The notes under the pieces are model-generated. The model was not told the origin of the DNA. It made no database searches and worked only from the letters and a program-made list of their open reading frames with translations. A stretch of 64,000 bases of DNA from Fusobacterium necrogenes (GTDB lineage Bacteria > Fusobacteriota > Fusobacteriia > Fusobacteriales > Fusobacteriaceae). The stretch is from the NCBI RefSeq assembly GCF_900450765.1, contig NZ_UGGU01000003.1, positions 62,001-126,000 of the forward strand. Reading direction: 5' to 3'. Below are positions 42,294-51,298 of the stretch, piece after piece (the stretch's first letter is position 1; every line of letters begins with the position of its first letter). Position numbers and translations under genes: made by a program.

Positions 42294-43052
42294 CTAGTTA
42301 GATTTTGACTTATATTCATAATATTTATTAATTTTATCAGGGAAATATTTTTTTAATATTTCAATATATACTCCATTTGAATCGAGTTTTAAAATTGCTT
42401 GATTAATTTGTTCTGCTAATTCTGTTTCACCTTTTCTTAGGGCGATAGATGCACCTGGAAAGTTTTCTTCCACTACATCAATTTTTTTAATTCCCTTCAT
42501 AGTTTTTAAATACTCTTCTCCACTTACATCAGCAATGATTACAGCATCAATTTTATTTTGTTGTAAGTCCATTAGAGCACCAGTCCAAGAGTTATAAAGT
42601 TGAGGTAATCCACCTAAATCTTTAGCAAATTCCTCTTGCATAGTTCCAATTTGTACTCCAATTTTTTTACCATTTAATTCCTCTTTTTTCACATAATTAC
42701 TCTCTTCATTAACTATTACATAGTGCTCATCTGATGAGAAAAGTAGATAAGGCATAGAGAAGGTAACAGCTTTTTGTCTTTCAGGTGTTTGAGACATTCC
42801 AGCTATGACAGCATCAATTTTTTTCATTTGAAGAGCAGGAAGTAGTCCATCAAAAGACATATTATTCCAAACTATTTCATATCCTAACTCTTCTCCAATA
42901 GCATCCATAAGTTCGATATCAAATCCTACCATTTTTCCATTTTCTAAATATTCATAAGGAGCAAATTCGGCATTAGTTCCAACATATAATTTTTTAGCTG
43001 CAAATGATAGTGAAGATAAAATTAACATTAAAAATAAAATAACTTTTTTCAT
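42294..43052 (-). CDS. Amino-acid ABC transporter substrate-binding protein
   Basis: This 252-residue family 3 periplasmic binding protein has a signal peptide MKKVILFLMLILSSLSFAA. The opening KLYVGTNAEFAPYEYLENGKMVGFDIELM is the classical ArtJ/HisJ/FliY signature, with later blocks VIAGMSQTPERQKAVTFSMPY. The ligand cannot be told. No permease or ATPase gene is adjacent, so it would use a transporter elsewhere. It shares a leader and promoter with the M20 gene upstream. ATG 43052 is fixed by GGAGTTTT just before it. Confidence 0.9.
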   Translation of the reverse strand: MKKVILFLMLILSSLSFAAKKLYVGTNAEFAPYEYLENGKMVGFDIELMDAIGEELGYEIVWNNMSFDGLLPALQMKKIDAVIAGMSQTPERQKAVTFSMPYLLFSSDEHYVIVNEESNYVKKEELNGKKIGVQIGTMQEEFAKDLGGLPQLYNSWTGALMDLQQNKIDAVIIADVSGEEYLKTMKGIKKIDVVEENFPGASIALRKGETELAEQINQAILKLDSNGVYIEILKKYFPDKINKYYEYKSKSN

Positions 43053-43082
43053 AAAAAACTCCTCCATATTTTATATAAATTT

Positions 43083-44255
43083 TTATTTAGAACTATTTTT
43101 GAATTCTTCTTTTATCTCTTGTAAAAGTTGAGGATTAGTAAATATATCCATAGCTGTAAGAGCCATTGCTATTGCAGCTTCTTTCATTCCTTTATAAGCT
43201 TCTGGTTGTATAGTAGCACAAGCAAATTCTATACTGTGTCCAGTTAAATGATTTGTAGTAAGTGGGAAAGATGGATGTATAGTTGGACAACAATGACTTA
43301 CATCTCCCATATCAGTAGAACCAAATCCCTCTTTATCAACAATTTTTGTAACCCCTTGAAGTATTAGATTTTTTTCATAAGTTTCAGATAATTTCTTATT
43401 TGTAACAAGGTTAGCAAAACTTGTTTCATAGTTTTGCATTTCTAAAGTAGTTCCAGTAGCAAGAGCAGCTCCTCTAGCACAGTTTTTTACTCTTTCTACT
43501 AATTCTTTAAGGTAAGAAAGTGTTTGAGCTCTTACATAAAAGTTAGCAACTGCTAAATCTGGAATAATATTAGCTGCCTTTCCACCATTGCTTATAATTC
43601 CATGAATTCTAGCTGTTTCTAAAGTTTGTTGTCTTAAAGCATTGATAGAGTTAAATAACATAAGAACTCCATCAAGAGCATTTATTCCCTCATGTGGAGA
43701 ACCAGCAGCATGAGCTGTTTTTCCTTTAAATGTGAATTGTATAGCTTCCATAGCTTGAGATTTTCCACTTCTAGTATGAGCTTCACCAGTAGGATGTACA
43801 GCCATAGCTATATCTATATCATTAAATATTCCAGCTTTAGCCATATCTACTTTAGCTCCACAAGTTTCTTCTGCAGGAGTTCCAATTACTAATACTTCTC
43901 CTACAACATCTCCCATAATCTCTTTTAAAAGTATACCAGCTGCTACACTTGTAACACCAAATATATTATGTCCACAACCATGTCCAATACCAGGTAAAGC
44001 ATCATATTCAGCAAGGATAGCTACCTTAGCTCCACCATTTCCAGATTTATATTTACCAATAAAAGCAGTAGGTATTCCTACATAGTTATCACTAGTTTCA
44101 AAGTTGTGTTTTTTTAATAGATTAGTTAGAGCTTCACAAGCTTTAAATTCTTGATGTCCTAATTCAGGGTTATTATATATATATTCATTAGCTTTTTTAA
44201 AATCTTCAAAATATTTATCAAAAAGTATTGATAATTTATCTTTTAAATTTTCCAT
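43083..44255 (-). CDS. M20 family amidohydrolase/peptidase
   Basis: A 390-residue zinc hydrolase of the M20 (AbgB / Xaa-Arg dipeptidase) branch. Metal and catalytic motifs: LAEYDALPGIGHGCGHNIFG, VIGTPAEETCGAKVDM with the general-base Glu, a dimerisation domain with FKGKTAHAAGSPHEGINA, and a late TDMGDVSHCCP. Pairing with an amino-acid binding protein suggests it trims N-acylated or dipeptide substrates to feed uptake. GGAGG precedes ATG 44255. Its upstream leader suggests attenuation; see findings. Substrate is inferred only at family level. Confidence 0.87.
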   Translation of the reverse strand: MENLKDKLSILFDKYFEDFKKANEYIYNNPELGHQEFKACEALTNLLKKHNFETSDNYVGIPTAFIGKYKSGNGGAKVAILAEYDALPGIGHGCGHNIFGVTSVAAGILLKEIMGDVVGEVLVIGTPAEETCGAKVDMAKAGIFNDIDIAMAVHPTGEAHTRSGKSQAMEAIQFTFKGKTAHAAGSPHEGINALDGVLMLFNSINALRQQTLETARIHGIISNGGKAANIIPDLAVANFYVRAQTLSYLKELVERVKNCARGAALATGTTLEMQNYETSFANLVTNKKLSETYEKNLILQGVTKIVDKEGFGSTDMGDVSHCCPTIHPSFPLTTNHLTGHSIEFACATIQPEAYKGMKEAAIAMALTAMDIFTNPQLLQEIKEEFKNSSK

Positions 44256-44271
44256 TTTTCCTCCTAGTATT

Positions 44272-44311
44272 AAAAAATAAAAAAGTCAATACATACCTAG
44301 ATGTATTGACT
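44272..44311 (-). terminator. Leader intrinsic terminator (attenuator) of the M20 operon
   Basis: On the minus strand AGTCAATACAT - 6-base loop - ATGTATTGACT, an 11-bp perfect stem, followed by a T run. It lies in the 5' leader, 17 bases before the M20 start codon, so it would stop transcription before the gene unless opened. The loop base run TAGGTAT can pair with ATACCTA at 44383-44377 upstream, which would compete with the stem. Confidence 0.75.
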
Positions 44312-44404
44312 CTTAAAAATCCAAAATATATTAAAATATACTAAGTAAAAATTTTAGTAGATAGAGTAAATAAAAGTAGGTATATTTAAAGATAAGATAT
44401 ATAA

Positions 44405-44446
44405 TTATTCATTGAATTTCCTTAACTTTAAGATACTAGATAACAT
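44405..44446 (-). CDS. Short leader peptide ORF upstream of the attenuator
   Basis: A 13-codon reading frame (M-L-S-S-I-L-K-L-R-K-F-N-E, then TAA), reading minus strand from ATG 44446, with AGGAG seven bases before it. It sits between the promoter (44507-44479) and the terminator hairpin, the classical layout of a translated attenuation leader. The sequence is not dominated by one amino acid, which argues against simple starvation sensing. It is too short to be judged by similarity, so the call rests on layout and ribosome site. Confidence 0.5.
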   Translation of the reverse strand: MLSSILKLRKFNE

Positions 44447-44478
44447 TTTATTTCTCCTCTTAAAAATTTTTATTTAAA

Positions 44479-44507
44479 TATATATCATATTTGTGAAAAA
44501 ATGTCAA
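44479..44507 (-). promoter_or_regulatory. Promoter of the M20-SBP operon
   Basis: On the minus strand TTGACA (44507-44502), 17 bases, TATATA (44484-44479), with TGA before the -10. It lies just after the phoU stop codon, so the two minus-strand operons are adjacent but separate. Confidence 0.75.
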
Positions 44508-44514
44508 ATTATTT

Positions 44515-45201
44515 TTAAATTTTTTTTTCTTCAAGTAATTCTATTTTTCTCATATTTTCACCTTTTAGAATATAAATCAGGTCAAATACTAGATGAAGAA
44601 TATGATCAGCAAATCTTTCAAGTTTTTTACAGAGTAAAATTAAGTCAGCACCACTTTGAATATTTTCAGGTTTTTTCTTCATAAGTTCAATAATACATTC
44701 AGTATCTTCTTTAGTTAAAGTATCTATCTCTTCATCCATGGTTAAAAGTGAAAAAAGAGCTTTTTCATCACTTTTTATAAAAGCATTAATATATCCTTCG
44801 TAGATATTCTTTGTTTTAATAGCTATTGGGTAGATAATATTTTTTAATTCTTTTTTCATTTCAGGAGAATCCTTTTCAATAGTTTTTATAATTTTTAAAT
44901 TAGCTTTTAGAATATCTCCCATTCTCTCTATAAGCCTAGCACTATTGATAAGCATAATAAGTAGCCTTAAATTTCCAGCTGCAGGTTGAAATCTTGCCAT
45001 TGTAAAGATAGAGTCTTCCTTGATTTTTACTTCAAAGTTATTAATAGTATCCTCAAGTATTAGACATTCACCATAAAGAGTTTTATCAAATGATGATTTT
45101 TCAAACATCTCAATATTGATATCTAAAACTCTATTCAGACTTTTTAATAATTCCAAGTAATGTTCTCTTAATCCTTTAATACTTTCATCTAAGTTTTTCA
45201 T
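44515..45201 (-). CDS. phoU: Phosphate-specific transport accessory protein PhoU
   Basis: A 228-residue all-helical protein made of two PhoU repeats, each a three-helix bundle. Typical stretches are LNRVLDINIEMFEKSSFDKTLYGECLILEDTINNFEVKI and RMGDILKANLKIIKTI. It signals phosphate status from the Pst transporter to the histidine kinase PhoR and limits uptake. It is the last gene of pstC-A-B-phoU. The next promoter (for the M20 operon) starts 8 bases before its stop end, with no terminator seen between. Confidence 0.93.
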   Translation of the reverse strand: MKNLDESIKGLREHYLELLKSLNRVLDINIEMFEKSSFDKTLYGECLILEDTINNFEVKIKEDSIFTMARFQPAAGNLRLLIMLINSARLIERMGDILKANLKIIKTIEKDSPEMKKELKNIIYPIAIKTKNIYEGYINAFIKSDEKALFSLLTMDEEIDTLTKEDTECIIELMKKKPENIQSGADLILLCKKLERFADHILHLVFDLIYILKGENMRKIELLEEKKI

Positions 45202-45210
45202 AATATCCTC

Positions 45211-45975
45211 CTATCCAAATTTTCCTGTTATATAGTCTTCTGTTTTTTTCTTATGTGGGGTTGTAAATATCAGTTCTGTTTTATCAAACTCTTCTAATAC
45301 TCCTTGATAGAAGAAACCAGTATATTCAGATATTCTAGAAGCTTGTTGCATATTGTGAGTTACAATTATGATACTGTATTCTTTTTCAAGTTGCCTAATA
45401 AGTTCTTCAATTTTTGATGTAGAGATTGGGTCAAGAGCTGATGTAGGCTCGTCCATTAGTAATATTTCAGGTCTTATAGAGATAGCTCTAGCTATACATA
45501 ATCTTTGTTGTTGTCCTCCGGAAAGTCCTAATGAGGATTTGTAAAGTTTATCTTTAACTTCATCCCAAAGAGCAACTGATTTTAAAGAAGTTTCTACAAT
45601 CTCATCTAATTTATCTTTATCTTTTTCTCCATGTAACTTAGGGGCATAAACAAGATTTTCATAGATGCTCTTAGGAAATGGATTTGGTTTTTGGAAAACC
45701 ATTCCTATTTTTTTTCTAAGTTCCACAATATCGTATTCTTTATCAAAGATATTTTTTCCATCAAAAATAATATTTCCTTCGTATTTTATATTAGGAATTA
45801 AGTCATTCATTCTATTTATTGATCTTAAGAATGTAGATTTTCCACAACCAGAAGGTCCAATTAGAGCAGTAACTTTATTTTTTTTGATTTCCATATTGAT
45901 ATCTTTTAATGCTTTAAAGTCACCATAATAAAAGTTAAAATCTTTTACTAAAATTCTTGTATCATTAGAATTCAT
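45211..45975 (-). CDS. pstB: Phosphate ABC transporter ATP-binding protein PstB
   Basis: A 254-residue ABC ATPase. Walker [20 protein letters not shown], the ABC signature LSGGQQQR with LCIARAI, Walker [13 protein letters not shown] and the His switch VTHNMQQA. The RINRMNDL stretch after Walker A and FDKTELIF end are the PstB specifics. It powers high-affinity phosphate uptake with PstC and PstA. Its stop and the phoU start are 9 bases apart. Confidence 0.97.
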
Positions 45976-46005
45976 ATTTCCTCCTAAAAATCTATATCTA
46001 TATCA

Positions 46006-46854
46006 TTATTTATTTTTTGAATTAAATTTTTGTCTGATAAAAGCACCAAATAAGTTGAAGCTAAGTGTTATAACTACAAGTATAAATAGTGTTCCATTGA
46101 TAAAAGATGATGGCATATTAGGAACTTGTGTAGATATAACATATAGGTGGTATGGTAATGCCATTACTTGATCCCAATATGAAATTGGTAAGAATGGTAG
46201 ATAGAAAGCAACTGCTGTAAACATTATTGGAGCTGTTTCTCCAGCTGCTCTAGATATACTTAGAATAACTCCAGTTAAAATTCCTGGCATAGCTGCTGGT
46301 AAGATTACCTTAGTTATTGTTTCCCATTTTGTAGCTCCAAGAGCAAGAGAAGCTTCTCTTAAATGATTAGGTATTGCAAGTAGAGATTCTCTAGTAGCTG
46401 TAATAATAACTGGTAAACACATTATTCCCAAAGTTAATGAACCAGAAAGTATTGAAACATCAAATCCTAAGAAAATAACAAATAGTGCCATACCAAATAA
46501 TCCATAAATTATACTTGGAATACCAGCAAGGTTTATTATTGTTAAATTAATGATTCTAGTTAGAAAATTATCTTTAGCATATTCTACTAAATAAACACCA
46601 GTAAAAATACCAAATGGAACAGCTACAATGATTGTTCCAAGTGTTAAGCAAAGGGTTCCAACTATTGCTGGAAATATTCCTCCAGCTCTCATTCCGTCAG
46701 TAGGCATCTCACTTAAAAATTCCCAAGATATTGCAGGAATACCAGTATATATTATATAACCAATTATTAAAAATACAGGAACTACAGCAACTAAAGTCAT
46801 TATTTTTATCAATATTTCTAAAAAATTAGCTTTTGATTTTTTTATAATTAACAT
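46006..46854 (-). CDS. pstA: Phosphate ABC transporter permease PstA
   Basis: A 282-residue integral membrane protein with about six helices and the BPD-transp motif with the EAA-like loop (REASLALGATKWETITKVILPAAMPGI). It pairs with PstC to form the channel. GGIFPAIVGTLCLTLGT is another PstA block. GGAGG is the ribosome site. It sits between pstB (30 bases on) and pstC. Confidence 0.94.
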   Translation of the reverse strand: MLIIKKSKANFLEILIKIMTLVAVVPVFLIIGYIIYTGIPAISWEFLSEMPTDGMRAGGIFPAIVGTLCLTLGTIIVAVPFGIFTGVYLVEYAKDNFLTRIINLTIINLAGIPSIIYGLFGMALFVIFLGFDVSILSGSLTLGIMCLPVIITATRESLLAIPNHLREASLALGATKWETITKVILPAAMPGILTGVILSISRAAGETAPIMFTAVAFYLPFLPISYWDQVMALPYHLYVISTQVPNMPSSFINGTLFILVVITLSFNLFGAFIRQKFNSKNK

Positions 46855-46871
46855 TATTTTTCCTCCTAAAA

Positions 46872-47744
46872 TTATAACTCTCTTGCTTTTCTTATAAATT
46901 TATCAGCTATGCAGTTAGTTATAAAGCTTATTATGAAAAGTACAATTCCAATTGTAAATAGTGCATAGTAGTGAGTACTTCCTTGAACTACTTCTCCCAT
47001 CTCAGCTGCTATTGTAGCTGTAAGAGTTCTTACTGCAGAAAGTGGGGTAGTAGCTAAAATTGGAGAGTTACCAGTTATCATGAGAACAGTAAGTGTTTCT
47101 CCAATTATTCTTCCAAATCCTAGCATAATACCAGCAAATATTCCTGGAAAAGCAGCAGGAAGAAGAACATTAAAAATAGTTTCTATCTGATTAGCTCCAA
47201 GAGCAAGAGAAGCTTCTTTGTAAGATTTATCAAGAGCTTCTAATGAGTCATCTGCTATACTTACTATTGTAGGAAGGGCCATAAAAGCAAGCATTATTCC
47301 ACCAGTTAAAGCAGTTAGTCCACTAGGAAGATTAAATAGATTTTTTATAGGACCAGATAATACATATAACCCGATAACTCCTAAAACAACTGATGGTATA
47401 GCTGACATTGTTTCAATGATAATCTTTAAAAATGTTCTTACTTTAGGAGTAGCATATTCAGCTATATAAATAGCTGTTAAAATTCCAACAGGGACAGCAA
47501 TAACTAAAGCTACTATTGTTACCCAAAATGAACCGACTAAAAGAGGCAAAAGTCCATATAACTCTGAAAGAGAAATCCATTTTTTCCCAAAAAAGAAATC
47601 AGAAACAGAGTATGAATCAAAAAATTTTAATCCATTTACAACTATAAATAAAAATATTAGAAAGATTATAACTATATTTGAAATTCCTATTCCAAATAAA
47701 ATATGCTTCATTCCATTATCTTTAATTTTTCTAAGACATTGCAT
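46872..47744 (-). CDS. pstC: Phosphate ABC transporter permease PstC
   Basis: A 290-residue permease, first gene of the operon. EAA loop: YKEASLALGANQIETIFNVLLPAAFPGI. Also LPLLVGSFWVTIVALVIAVPVGILTAIYIAEYA and the LGFGRIIGETLTVLMITGNSP end block. ATG 47744 is set by GGAGGTTTTT ahead of it; the frame extends further upstream without a site. The promoter lies in the divergent region with pstS (47757-47941). Confidence 0.94.
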   Translation of the reverse strand: MQCLRKIKDNGMKHILFGIGISNIVIIFLIFLFIVVNGLKFFDSYSVSDFFFGKKWISLSELYGLLPLLVGSFWVTIVALVIAVPVGILTAIYIAEYATPKVRTFLKIIIETMSAIPSVVLGVIGLYVLSGPIKNLFNLPSGLTALTGGIMLAFMALPTIVSIADDSLEALDKSYKEASLALGANQIETIFNVLLPAAFPGIFAGIMLGFGRIIGETLTVLMITGNSPILATTPLSAVRTLTATIAAEMGEVVQGSTHYYALFTIGIVLFIISFITNCIADKFIRKAREL

Positions 47745-47851
47745 AAAAACCTCCAAAAATATTTCAATTACATTAATTTAATAACAAAATAATATTAAAA
47801 TATTAATGTAAAAGAGATATTAATTCAATGTTAAAATAGTGTAAAAAAAAT

Positions 47852-47890
47852 TTTACATGAAATTTACAATGTCTTAATATTGTCTTAACA
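47852..47890 (+). promoter_or_regulatory. Pho box array (four 11-bp-spaced repeats) before pstS
   Basis: TTTACA (47852), TTTACA (47863), TTAATA (47874) and TTAACA (47885) are spaced exactly 11 bases apart, one turn of DNA. This is the PhoP-box pattern of TTAACA-like hexamers with 5-base gaps. It lies 67 bases upstream of the pstS start. The region 47757-47941 is also the divergent pstC promoter space, so the array may serve both directions. The pattern is seen; the protein that binds it is inferred to be the PhoB-like regulator at 48936. Confidence 0.8.
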
Positions 47891-47956
47891 TGGAAAGAAT
47901 ATATTTTACTCGTAAACGTAAAGAAATGATAAAAATTTAATTTGGAGGGAATAAAA

Positions 47957-48802
47957 ATGAGTATTTTTAAAAAAGGTTTATTAGGAATGTTAGTAGCAGT
48001 GGGAATAATTTTAAATACTGATGTAGCAGAAGCTAGATCAAGAGTTATTCAAGCTAAAGGATCAGACACTATATTAAATGTATCTCAATCGATAGCAGAA
48101 AATTATATGAAAGAAAATAGAAAAGCAAGAATAGCAGTAACAGGTGGAGGATCAGGAGTAGGAATTTCATCTTTAATTAATGGAACAACAGATATAGCTA
48201 TGGCTTCAAGAAATATAAAAGCTAAAGAACTTGAACAAGCTAAAGCAAAAGGATTAGAGGTAAAAGAAGTAGTATTAGGTTTTGATGGAATAACAATAAT
48301 AGCTAATCATGCAAATACTATAAAAGATATTGATGATATAACTTTAGGAAAAGTATTTAGAGGAGAGATAACTAACTGGAAAGAATTAGGGGGAGATGAC
48401 GCTCCAATCGTTGTACTATCAAGAGATTCATCATCAGGAACTCATGAATTTTTTAAAGAACATATAATAAGAGAAAATAATACTAAAAAAGATTTAGAAT
48501 ATGGACCTAAAACTCTATATATGCCATCTAATGAAGCTATAAAACAAGAAGTTAAATCAAATAAATATGCAATTGGATATATTGGAATGGGATATATGGA
48601 TGACTCAGTAGAAGCTATAAAAGTAGATGGAGTAGAGGCAAGTGTTGAAAATGTGGCAAGTAAAAAATATCCAATAGCGAGAGAAGTATACTGGTACGTT
48701 GATAATGCTGCTTCAGAGGATATAAATAAACTTGTAGATTATGCACTTTCTTCAAAAGGACAAGAGTTAATTAGAGAAGAAGGGTTTGTTCCTGTAAAAT
48801 AA
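47957..48802 (+). CDS. pstS: Phosphate ABC transporter substrate-binding protein PstS
   Basis: A 281-residue periplasmic phosphate-binding protein. Signal peptide with AEA cleavage (about 1-25), then IQAKGSDTILNVSQSIAENY, GGGSGVGISSLINGTTDIAMASR (phosphate contacts), VLSRDSSSGTHEFFKEH, and SKGQELIREEGFVPVK at the end. It is on the opposite strand to its permease genes, an unusual split; in most genomes pstS leads pstCAB. ATG 47957 follows GGAGGGA by 5 bases. Confidence 0.95.
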   Translation: MSIFKKGLLGMLVAVGIILNTDVAEARSRVIQAKGSDTILNVSQSIAENYMKENRKARIAVTGGGSGVGISSLINGTTDIAMASRNIKAKELEQAKAKGLEVKEVVLGFDGITIIANHANTIKDIDDITLGKVFRGEITNWKELGGDDAPIVVLSRDSSSGTHEFFKEHIIRENNTKKDLEYGPKTLYMPSNEAIKQEVKSNKYAIGYIGMGYMDDSVEAIKVDGVEASVENVASKKYPIAREVYWYVDNAASEDINKLVDYALSSKGQELIREEGFVPVK

Positions 48803-48833
48803 AATATAAAAGATAAAATAATATCTATAATTT

Positions 48834-48899
48834 AGAGAGAACTCAAAAAATAGTTAAAAGTTATAAATTTTCTTTTACTTTTTGAGTTCTCTCTTTTAT
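48834..48899 (+). terminator. Terminator of pstS
   Basis: AGAGAGAACTCAAAAA pairs with TTTTTGAGTTCTCTCT, a 16-bp perfect stem, with a 29-base loop and a T run. The phoB gene follows after it, so pstS is largely insulated from phoB-phoR. Confidence 0.85.
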
Positions 48900-48935
48900 A
48901 ATTTAAGTATAAATTATAAGATCAGCGGAGGCAAA

Positions 48936-49622
48936 ATGAGAATATTAATAGTTGAAGATGACAAGGAGATACAGGAACTAATAACATATTTTCTTTCCAA
49001 AGAAGGATACGAAGTGGATCAAGCAGATGATGGGTTAGAGGGTCTTAAACTTTTGAAAGAAAAACAACATGACTTAATAATATTAGATTTAATGTTACCT
49101 AATTTAGATGGAAAAAATTTTACTAAAATAGTAAAGGGAATATCTTCAGAGTATGGTAATCCAGCTATTATTATGTTAACTGCTAAAACAGAAATAGAAG
49201 ATGTATTAGAAGGTTTAGAAATAGGTGCTGATGATTATATGAAAAAACCTTTTGATCCAAGGGAGTTAGTTTTGAGAGTTAAAAGATTTTCCAAAAAAGA
49301 GGAGAGAAGAGAGGAAGAGTTTAAGAAAAAATATGAATTTTTAGATTTGGTAATTGAAGATGATAAGCATAGGGTTCTTTATAAAAACAAGGAGATAGAG
49401 TTTTCAAAAAAAGAGTATGATTTATTACTTTTACTAGTATTAAATAAAAATTTAGTTATAACAAGGGAAAAAATACTAGATGAGATTTGGAAGAGTAATT
49501 ACTATACTGGAGATAGAACAGCAGATGTATATATATCTAAGCTAAGAGACAAACTTCCTGGAATAAGTGAATGTATAAAAACAATAAAAGGAGTGGGATA
49601 CAAATTAGAAGAAAAGAGATAG
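48936..49622 (+). CDS. phoB: Phosphate regulon response regulator PhoB-like
   Basis: This 228-residue OmpR-family regulator has a receiver domain 1-120 with the phosphoacceptor Asp in LIILDLMLPNLDGKNF, the conserved Lys in MKKPFDPRELVLRV, and acidic residues at VEDDKEI. A winged-helix DNA-binding domain (about 130-228) ends in GDRTADVYISKLRDKL and IKGVGYKLE. The start is ATG 48936 behind GCGGAGGC. The phoR-like kinase starts 51 bases before its stop. Confidence 0.9.
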   Translation: MRILIVEDDKEIQELITYFLSKEGYEVDQADDGLEGLKLLKEKQHDLIILDLMLPNLDGKNFTKIVKGISSEYGNPAIIMLTAKTEIEDVLEGLEIGADDYMKKPFDPRELVLRVKRFSKKEERREEEFKKKYEFLDLVIEDDKHRVLYKNKEIEFSKKEYDLLLLLVLNKNLVITREKILDEIWKSNYYTGDRTADVYISKLRDKLPGISECIKTIKGVGYKLEEKR

Positions 49623-51298
49623 CGATATTGATAATGATATTAATATTAGAAGGAATATTTGTAGGTATAAATTCACAAATACTTTCAAATTTATATCAAG
49701 AAAGGTCAAAGCAAATTTTAAAAGAAGATACAATATTAGTGAAGTTAGTAGCAGAAGGTAATCCACGTACTAAATATCAAGAGCTGTTTTCAAATAATGC
49801 TTTGAGATTTACATTGATAGATTTAACTGGAAAAGTGGTATTTGATTCTAAGAAAACAGAAGAAGAAGAAAAAAGGATGGAAAATCACCTTCAAAGACAA
49901 GAAATTCAAGAAGCGATAAAGGAAAAAGAGAGCTTTGTAATTAGATATAGTAAAACTTTTGAGACGGTGATGGCATATTATGCTATTTCTATTAAAAATA
50001 GTGAAGGGGAAGAATATATACTGAGGACAGCTAGTGAATATAATAAAGAGCTCATGCAAATAAGAGAGTTTCTTTTGATACAGATCATTTTTTTCTTAAT
50101 ATTAAATTATGTCATACATTTTTTTTATAAAAATTATATAAAAAGAGATTTTTATACTAAAATTAAAAGAATGAGAAAATTTCTTGAAAGTGGAGAGATG
50201 GAAAAGATAAATTATTCTAAAGATGAGTATTGGCTTTTTGAATTTTGGGATATTTTAAAAGAGTGGCAGGGAAAAAATTTAAAAAATATTTCAAGATTAG
50301 AAAAAGAAAGAAGAATACTTTCTGAAGTTTTACATTCTGCAGATTCGTTTATAGGATTGTTGGATAGTGAAGGTAGATTTATCATAAAAAATACTTCATT
50401 AAAATATATAGTAGATCCATATGAAGAGCGTTATTTAGAAGCAATAAAGTATTTAGAATTAATAATTCCAATAAAAAATGGATTGCTGAGTAAGAAAGAG
50501 TATAGAGAAGATATTTATATACAGAGTTTGAAAAAATATTTCCTATTTACAATGAAATATTTGGAGTTTAGCAATAGATTTATTATTACGGTTAAAGATA
50601 TAACGAGTACGAGAGAAGCAGTAGAGGTACAGAAAACATTTATAAACAATGTAAGCCATGAATTAAAAACACCACTTACTAATATAAAAGGCTACTTAAT
50701 AGCTTTGGAGGATGCTCCTGAGATAATGAGAAGGAAGTTTTTAAATACTATTAAGACAAATGTTGAAAAATTAGAAAATATAGTATTAGATTTTTTGAAT
50801 ATTTCGAAGATAGAAAATTCAAACTTAGTTAATATTTCACAAGTTGGAGTTGAGAAGTTAAAAAAAGAACTTTTGGATATTCTTTCAGTAAAGATATATG
50901 AAAGAGGAGCTAAAGTGGAGTTTTTATTTCAATTGACTGATGGAAGAGATTACTTAAAAGTAGATTTTGAGAAGATAGTTATGATATTAAAAAATCTTAT
51001 TGAAAATGGGGTAATATACAATAAGAACTCTAATCCAAAAGTAGTGGTTCAAGTATTAGAAAAAGGAGATAGATATGAGATAAGTGTGATAGATAATGGT
51101 ATAGGAATACCTATTTATGAACAAGATAAAGTTTTTGAGAGATTTTATAGAGTAGATAAAGCTAGAACAAGTAATCTAGGTGGAACTGGGTTAGGGCTTT
51201 CAATAGTAAAGACTCTTATTGAAAAATGTGGTGGTGGACTTATAATAGATTCTAAAGAAGAAAAAGGAACAAGATTTTCTTTCTATATTTTAAAATAA
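49571..51298 (+). CDS. phoR: Phosphate regulon sensor histidine kinase PhoR-like
   Basis: A 575-residue membrane histidine kinase. N-terminal helix (about 17-37), a periplasmic sensor segment, a second helix near 166-184 (FLLIQIIFFLILNYVIHFFY), a PAS-like region (260-345), HisKA with the phospho-His in VSHELKTPLTNIKGY, and HATPase with NGVIYN, DNGIGIP and GTGLGLSIVK. The exact start is unclear: ATG 49571 lacks a good site and overlaps phoB; a start nearer RRKEIAIL is possible. No terminator follows directly. Confidence 0.88.
   Translation: MYKNNKRSGIQIRRKEIAILIMILILEGIFVGINSQILSNLYQERSKQILKEDTILVKLVAEGNPRTKYQELFSNNALRFTLIDLTGKVVFDSKKTEEEEKRMENHLQRQEIQEAIKEKESFVIRYSKTFETVMAYYAISIKNSEGEEYILRTASEYNKELMQIREFLLIQIIFFLILNYVIHFFYKNYIKRDFYTKIKRMRKFLESGEMEKINYSKDEYWLFEFWDILKEWQGKNLKNISRLEKERRILSEVLHSADSFIGLLDSEGRFIIKNTSLKYIVDPYEERYLEAIKYLELIIPIKNGLLSKKEYREDIYIQSLKKYFLFTMKYLEFSNRFIITVKDITSTREAVEVQKTFINNVSHELKTPLTNIKGYLIALEDAPEIMRRKFLNTIKTNVEKLENIVLDFLNISKIENSNLVNISQVGVEKLKKELLDILSVKIYERGAKVEFLFQLTDGRDYLKVDFEKIVMILKNLIENGVIYNKNSNPKVVVQVLEKGDRYEISVIDNGIGIPIYEQDKVFERFYRVDKARTSNLGGTGLGLSIVKTLIEKCGGGLIIDSKEEKGTRFSFYILK

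Follow-up and report, generated by a model that had tools for sequence, protein, structure and literature searches.

Arginine appears to be sensed by RNA in a bacterial family that lacks the usual arginine repressor

The locus described here lies in a 64-kb stretch of Fusobacterium necrogenes DNA (64,000 nucleotides, hereafter the window, numbered from its first letter), on whose minus strand a leader region sits between phoU (44515-45201) and a two-gene operon encoding an M20-family amidohydrolase and an SBP_bac_3 protein (Table 1). The best model for the latter is lysine/arginine/ornithine-binding, with a score below that model's cut-off. A phosphate locus adjoins the arginine-type operon: positions 44515-51298 include phoU, genes for Pst-type phosphate transport and, farther along, a pair made up of a response regulator and a sensor kinase. 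The promoter of the leader, directly behind phoU, has a TG preceding TATATA and is thus of the extended -10 type; it was not listed by a consensus scan of the window region because its -10 ends in A. TTGAC(A/T) with TATAxx is found at the equivalent position upstream of most related leaders, and a GGAG-type ribosome-binding site upstream of nearly all of them. The promoter, the 13-codon open reading frame (ORF) with its own ribosome-binding site and the 11-bp terminator are all where the first-pass annotation of this DNA had placed them. The T-rich tail of the terminator extends to 44272, 16 bases ahead of the M20 start codon at 44255, and shuffling the region yielded 0.0 such terminator sites (sd 0.2).

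Table 1. Features of the leader and of the operon that follows it (window coordinates).
Feature	Position	Strand	Sequence or basis
Promoter	44479..44507	(-)	TTGACA 44507-44502, 17 nt, TATATA 44484-44479
Ribosome-binding site of leader ORF	44454..44458	(-)	AGGAG; sequence
Leader ORF MLSSILKLRKFNE*	44405..44446	(-)	ATG 44446 to TAA 44405, 13 codons
Region 1 (Arg-codon part of ORF)	44420..44438	(-)	TAGTAT 44438-44433 and AAAGTTAAGG 44429-44420; alignment, pairing with region 2
Region 2	44364..44396	(-)	CTTATCTTTAA 44396-44386 pairs with region 1
Region 2, antiterminator part	44377..44383 and 44364..44372	(-)	ATACCTA 44383-44377 and TATTTACTC 44372-44364; pairs with region 3
Region 3	44293..44312	(-)	GAGTCAATA 44312-44304 and TAGGTAT 44299-44293; terminator 5' arm and loop
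Intrinsic terminator	44272..44311	(-)	11-bp stem 44311-44301 / 44294-44284, loop CTAGGT (6)
Gene 1, M20-family amidohydrolase (390 aa)	43083..44255	(-)	TIGR01891 above cut-off; M20_dimer
Gene 2, amino-acid ABC transporter substrate-binding protein, SBP_bac_3	42294..43067	(-)	profile match

An alternative structure could displace the terminator. It had been proposed that ATACCTA, upstream, pairs with TAGGTAT, which covers the terminator loop and two bases at the start of the 3' arm; the two are indeed complementary, but the helix is longer than was claimed, since TATTTACTC also pairs with GAGTCAATA of the terminator 5' arm. This 2:3 helix has a predicted energy of -17.4 kcal/mol in the window copy (z = -4.3, with 0/200 dinucleotide shuffles as good), and the fold of the stalled form likewise gives region 3 as the partner of region 2. 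An antiterminator (2:3) and a terminator (3:4) that exclude each other, with a run of T ahead of the gene, are thus present. A further, competing helix (1:2), absent from the first-pass annotation, lies upstream and joins the CTTATCTTTAA / ATAC segment (44396-44381) to GTAT, TTAAAG and TAAG of the ORF. In the window copy this helix is weak (-8.9 kcal/mol, p = 0.2 versus shuffles), and in most relatives it is strong.

The meaning of the ORF emerges from its relatives. M20 orthologues were located by protein similarity, without use of the leader, and their upstream regions were then read. This gave 20 distinct M20 leaders in which ORF and ribosome-binding site are conserved between promoter and structural gene; a 21st M20 leader, in G019 (L177), was found by the covariance model described below. 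Most M20 leaders share the promoter, the GGAG-type site, an ORF of 17-31 codons, regions 1 and 2, and a terminator before the M20 gene. The leader ORF and both pairing segments are therefore kept in related genomes, and the attenuation proposal withstands the refutation by lack of conservation that the first-pass annotation had set for it. The peptides (MLLRTLKLRK..., MLFNKLRIRN..., MFFSRLRIRK..., MLLRNRKLRN..., MMLLRRRQLN... and MRKIRMRHRR) vary at most residues but not at arginine (MLLRTLKLRKFN, MLLRNRKLRNLN, MLFNKLRIRNRK, MFFSRLRIRKNE, MMLLRRRQLNIN, MLKNTRRQRNIK, MKLSVRRQLNIK, MRKIRMRHRRTK). Every one of the 20 M20-anchored ORFs contains Arg, 19 contain at least two Arg codons, and Arg makes up 11.9% of their codons. 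AGG accounts for 46 of their 58 Arg codons (79%) versus 68/601 (11%) in the genes of the 64-kb window, which served as the background, although RNA pairing accounts for part of this bias, since AAGG is required in region 1 and codon choice cannot vary independently of structure. The leaders of the family are thus enriched in codons for the amino acid that the operon supplies, while the window copy has a single Arg codon (AGG, codon 9, 44422-44420). One tRNA-Arg(CCT) gene and three tRNA-Arg(TCT) genes were found in this genome, which also carries a selenocysteine tRNA gene (anticodon TCA; L267 182-273, in G000:C3 near 585482).

Region 2a, the segment ATACCTTATCTT, retains its nucleotides although it is read in different frames, encoding NTLSF in L002 and KYLIFF in L008, which argues for constraint on the RNA. 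This segment can pair with the Arg codons, AAGGAUAAGG matching CCUUAUCUU in one group of leaders and AAGGAGACAA matching UUGUCUUU in another. Across 22 leaders from several genera, 93.8% of the cells of helix 1:2 are paired, a one-column slide cuts pairing to 49-59%, and five of the eight base pairs have changed on both sides. The covariation score was 0.511, versus 0.279 for shuffled data, with none of 500 shuffles as high; the underlying alignment was built manually from the two segments and is to that extent biased towards structure, and the common descent of the leaders inflates the p-values. Within the close group there is pairing with no double changes, and covariation emerged once the other genera had been added. 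Duplex tests, which are independent of the alignment, gave mean energies for helix 1:2 of -15.7 kcal/mol with its own partner versus -10.1 kcal/mol with partners swapped in from other groups (mean z of -3.4 versus dinucleotide shuffles), and for helix 2:3 of -14.7 versus -8.5 kcal/mol (mean z of -2.6). Weak scores were obtained for helix 2:3 of L012, L122 and L124 and for helix 1:2 of L124 and L130. A pairing of regulatory codons with a downstream segment is thus found over the family; taken alone, that of the window copy does not stand out from chance (p = 0.2).

In L008, helix 1:2 begins at the start codon (AUG) of the ORF, includes AGCA and reaches AAGGAUAAGG; its region-2 strand, UGCU..GACAUUAU, also pairs with AUAAUGUC..AGCA of the terminator. 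Because the same strand pairs with either, regions 1 and 3 compete for region 2, just as they do in classical attenuators. When leaders were folded with region 1 masked and the 3' arm absent, the terminator 5' arm paired with region 2 in most of them, that of the window included. Conservation, covariation and swap tests together support the earlier proposal that a translated leader and RNA structures that exclude each other bring about attenuation.

A covariance model built from 14 orthologous M20 leaders was used to search 61 genomes of the family. It places a leader ahead of M20 in 12/12 genomes of the genus, and in the same 12/12 a sister leader precedes an amino-acid ABC permease; other sister leaders precede Lys/Arg/Orn-type substrate-binding proteins, these transporters being arginine-like by family only, below equivalog cut-offs. 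Of the further leaders that the model found beyond those of M20, 38 were read in sequence. The genome of the window has two of its own, L165 (G000:C3:782366-782470) before an operon of permease, ATPase and binding protein, and L193 (G000:C3:55163-55271; MLMITLLRNRKYNTT) before a binding protein, the latter with a 2:3 helix of -20.9 kcal/mol (z -5.2). Leaders also precede biosynthetic operons: argC-argJ-argB-argD-argF in G075 (MMLLRNFRIMTKHNK) and argC-argJ-carA-carB in G035 (MLFRIRRMRRNKK), where argC, argJ, argB, argD, ornithine carbamoyltransferase and carA score above NCBI's cut-offs and carB is named from sequence and place only. In one argC leader, both helices recur (1:2 z -6.6, 2:3 z -4.2), so that its architecture is that of the M20 leaders. 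In G021, a single leader (MLRIRN...) is followed in one row by permease, ATPase, M20 and binding protein, and the M20 enzyme is tied to the transporter by this common leader; we consider the M20 amidohydrolase a probable part of arginine acquisition.

Nearly every leader examined thus has amino-acid transport or arginine synthesis genes downstream. The exception is L276 (G002:C1:2646209), where the gene after an AGG leader (MLLRHERHGISNL) encodes a multi-pass membrane protein (MENYGFLSILPIIIAVAMAIKTKNVILSLF...) whose first 123 residues have no NCBIfam match and which is possibly another arginine-related transporter. In G019, the permease and M20 leaders (L176 and L177) are each separated from their gene by a similar stretch, in opposite orientations (GTCTCTGACGTTCGTATTAGTT / CTAATATGGACGTCAGAGAC), that resembles a dispersed repeat which has inserted behind both attenuators. 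The model found nothing credible in other families of the order. Weak hits (L277, L279, L282-L285) and those on the Leptotrichiaceae side (L287-L289) lie in genes or have no leader anatomy, and were set aside as chance. Other searches were discarded as well, a strict DNA pattern (CTAAGG..TTAAGG..ACCTTATCTTT) matching four close relatives only, a loose one (GGAGG..ATG..AGGNNNAGGA) being swamped by glycine-rich gene starts, and a scan of named genomes returning mostly Firmicutes M20 relatives that were uninformative on leaders.

ArgR and T-boxes were examined as other possible arginine sensors. The ArgR family (PF01316) was found at cut-off in 0/61 Fusobacteriales genomes by a search that was positive in E. 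coli, B. subtilis and others, and 11 of the 12 genus genomes have no T-box. The sole T-box among the 12 (G007:C53:5272-5519) is possibly a contamination, since that assembly is incomplete and fragmented. An Rfam scan of the window brought only tmRNA to a gathering score, with no match to a T-box or to an amino-acid leader (Trp, His, Leu, Thr and others), and a scan of 44200-44560 at a weak threshold gave chance hits only.

Taken together, these observations lead us to propose, with a probability of roughly 0.85, that the leader is a ribosome-mediated transcription attenuator sensing arginine through the charging of tRNA-Arg. From its architecture we infer stalling, read-through and the direction of the response as follows. 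RNA polymerase would start at the promoter and a ribosome would load on the short ORF. When charged tRNA-Arg is short, the ribosome would stall on the AGG codons of region 1 and keep this region unpaired; with region 1 masked, region 2 would pair with region 3 (the terminator 5' arm and loop), the terminator would be blocked and the M20/substrate-binding-protein operon transcribed. With ample arginine, the ribosome would clear region 1, either entering region 2 or departing so that 1:2 pairs, and region 3 would then pair with the terminator 3' arm and stop transcription. The window peptide had prompted the suggestion that the leader responds to something other than the simple charging of a single tRNA. 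This finds no support in the relatives, whose leaders are rich in Arg codons, mostly AGG, ahead of arginine genes; the suggestion was drawn from one eroded copy, and the signal is most likely ordinary tRNA-Arg charging.

The window leader is indeed the most eroded of its family, with one AGG codon left. The first AGG has been lost (CTAAGGACA in relatives versus TCTAGTATC here) and codon 14 is TAA, where the nearest relative has AAA; this stop explains why the ORF has 13 codons versus 25-31 in the relatives of the genus, and together the two changes make the arginine signature invisible in this copy. The M20 leader of this genome is therefore weakened and may respond poorly or be partly constitutive, while the other two leaders found in this genome still have two or three of these codons. 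One could go further and consider the family to be arginine attenuators but the window copy a decayed relic, leaving its M20 operon constitutive or poorly regulated; besides the lost AGG and the nonsense codon, the weak 1:2 helix and the lowest model score of any M20 leader in the genus agree with this. We nevertheless think such decay less likely than not, as the promoter, ribosome-binding site, AGG codon 9, antiterminator (z -4.3) and perfect terminator are all retained, and TAGTAT, though altered, remains complementary to ATACCTA apart from a single bulge, which means that pairing has been conserved through base change. A second short ORF, MNNYISYL (44386-44412, minus strand), overlaps the stop codon of the leader (ATGAATAA) and ends just before region 2b. 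It is not conserved; re-initiation there could carry ribosomes into region 2 in this genome, which would also speak against a relic.

The remaining alternatives to tRNA-Arg charging differ in what the ribosome or the RNA would recognise. The first-pass annotation leaned towards ribosome stalling or a ligand as the signal. The short, basic peptides with their repeated +X+ pattern (LRIR, KLRK, RRQR) might suggest stalling that depends on the nascent peptide or on a ligand in the exit tunnel, be it free arginine, ornithine or some other, in the manner of TnaC or of SpeFL, which senses ornithine. Apart from Arg, however, the peptides share little identity, with even the frame of the C-terminal half varying, and a peptide signal leaves the use of AGG over the common, synonymous AGA unexplained. 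Moreover, stalling is expected to turn these leaders on; were it to happen at high arginine, argCJBDF would be induced amid plenty, the wrong sign for a biosynthetic operon, and we hold this mechanism to be improbable. The same AGG bias is left unexplained if the RIR/RLR-like tripeptides seen in many leaders serve, as +X+ peptides (RLR, RIR), to stall macrolide-carrying ribosomes, as has been proposed for the hflX uORF motif (PMC8632094); the genes downstream of the leaders examined are mostly for amino-acid transport and arginine biosynthesis, with no resistance or ribosome-rescue gene among them, making an antibiotic sensor extremely improbable. A terminator with an alternative pairing would equally fit a riboswitch, a T-box or a protein-binding leader in which the ORF is incidental. 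That the ORF, its ribosome-binding site and its AGG codons are conserved, that region 1 lies inside the ORF and that no such Rfam family reaches a gathering score here make this very improbable too.

The arginine attenuator proposed here resembles the classical attenuators of Proteobacteria (trp, his, leu, thr, ilv, phe) in its translated leader with codons for the pathway amino acid in region 1, its alternative helices 1:2, 2:3 and 3:4, and its intrinsic terminator ahead of the operon. It differs from them in that the Fusobacteriaceae leaders read arginine through dispersed codons (AGG NNN AGG) instead of a run, often include the start codon of the ORF in the 1:2 helix, have no Rfam match, and precede uptake genes besides biosynthetic ones. 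Leader peptides that respond to arginine are known elsewhere. That of S. aureus rbfL senses arginine shortage via rare AGA/AGG codons, but acts on translation by covering the rbf ribosome-binding site, with short arginine lowering expression and no terminator switch (PMC13009471). Salmonella orf34/speFL, before speF, has two arginine codons and an RNA that folds differently at low and high arginine, but works via Rho, ribosome-site access and RNase G, and controls ornithine decarboxylase (PMC6386406). T-boxes, named as RNA regulators of arginine genes in a survey of Actinobacteria (PMC1262725), and ArgR similarly place arginine genes under the control of arginine supply; unlike the Fusobacterium leader, the T-box reads the tRNA directly, without translation, and ArgR is a protein repressor. 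Comparative genomics has also revealed leader-peptide attenuators beyond Proteobacteria and Actinobacteria, namely the histidine leader peptides before hisS/hisZ of Firmicutes, which differ from those described here in amino acid (histidine), host (Bacilli) and genes (tRNA synthetases) (PMC2965389). Our search of the openly accessible literature turned up neither a transcription attenuator that uses arginine codons nor a leader-peptide attenuator of any kind in Fusobacteria. One scan took in Fusobacteria among 26 genomes (PMC8632094), and an earlier listing of such leaders there, without a name, is possible. The mechanism is thus a classical one, while its arginine specificity, its multi-operon regulon and the phylum appear undescribed in that literature.

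Fusobacteria are amino-acid fermenters and include oral and gut pathogens. With the usual repressor missing, there is no obvious answer to how they sense arginine, and the proposed arginine attenuator provides a concrete, testable one that names the genes involved. We consider it rather probable that the Fusobacteriaceae run a whole arginine regulon (uptake, M20 amidohydrolase, argCJBDF and carAB) by independent leader-peptide attenuators that are tuned to a single rare codon, AGG, and replace ArgR and T-boxes, and which would form an arginine-specific class of ribosome-mediated attenuators in a phylum where none had been described. Leader-peptide attenuators would thereby be known for one more amino acid, arginine, and for one more phylum, a point relevant to the question of their repeated origin.
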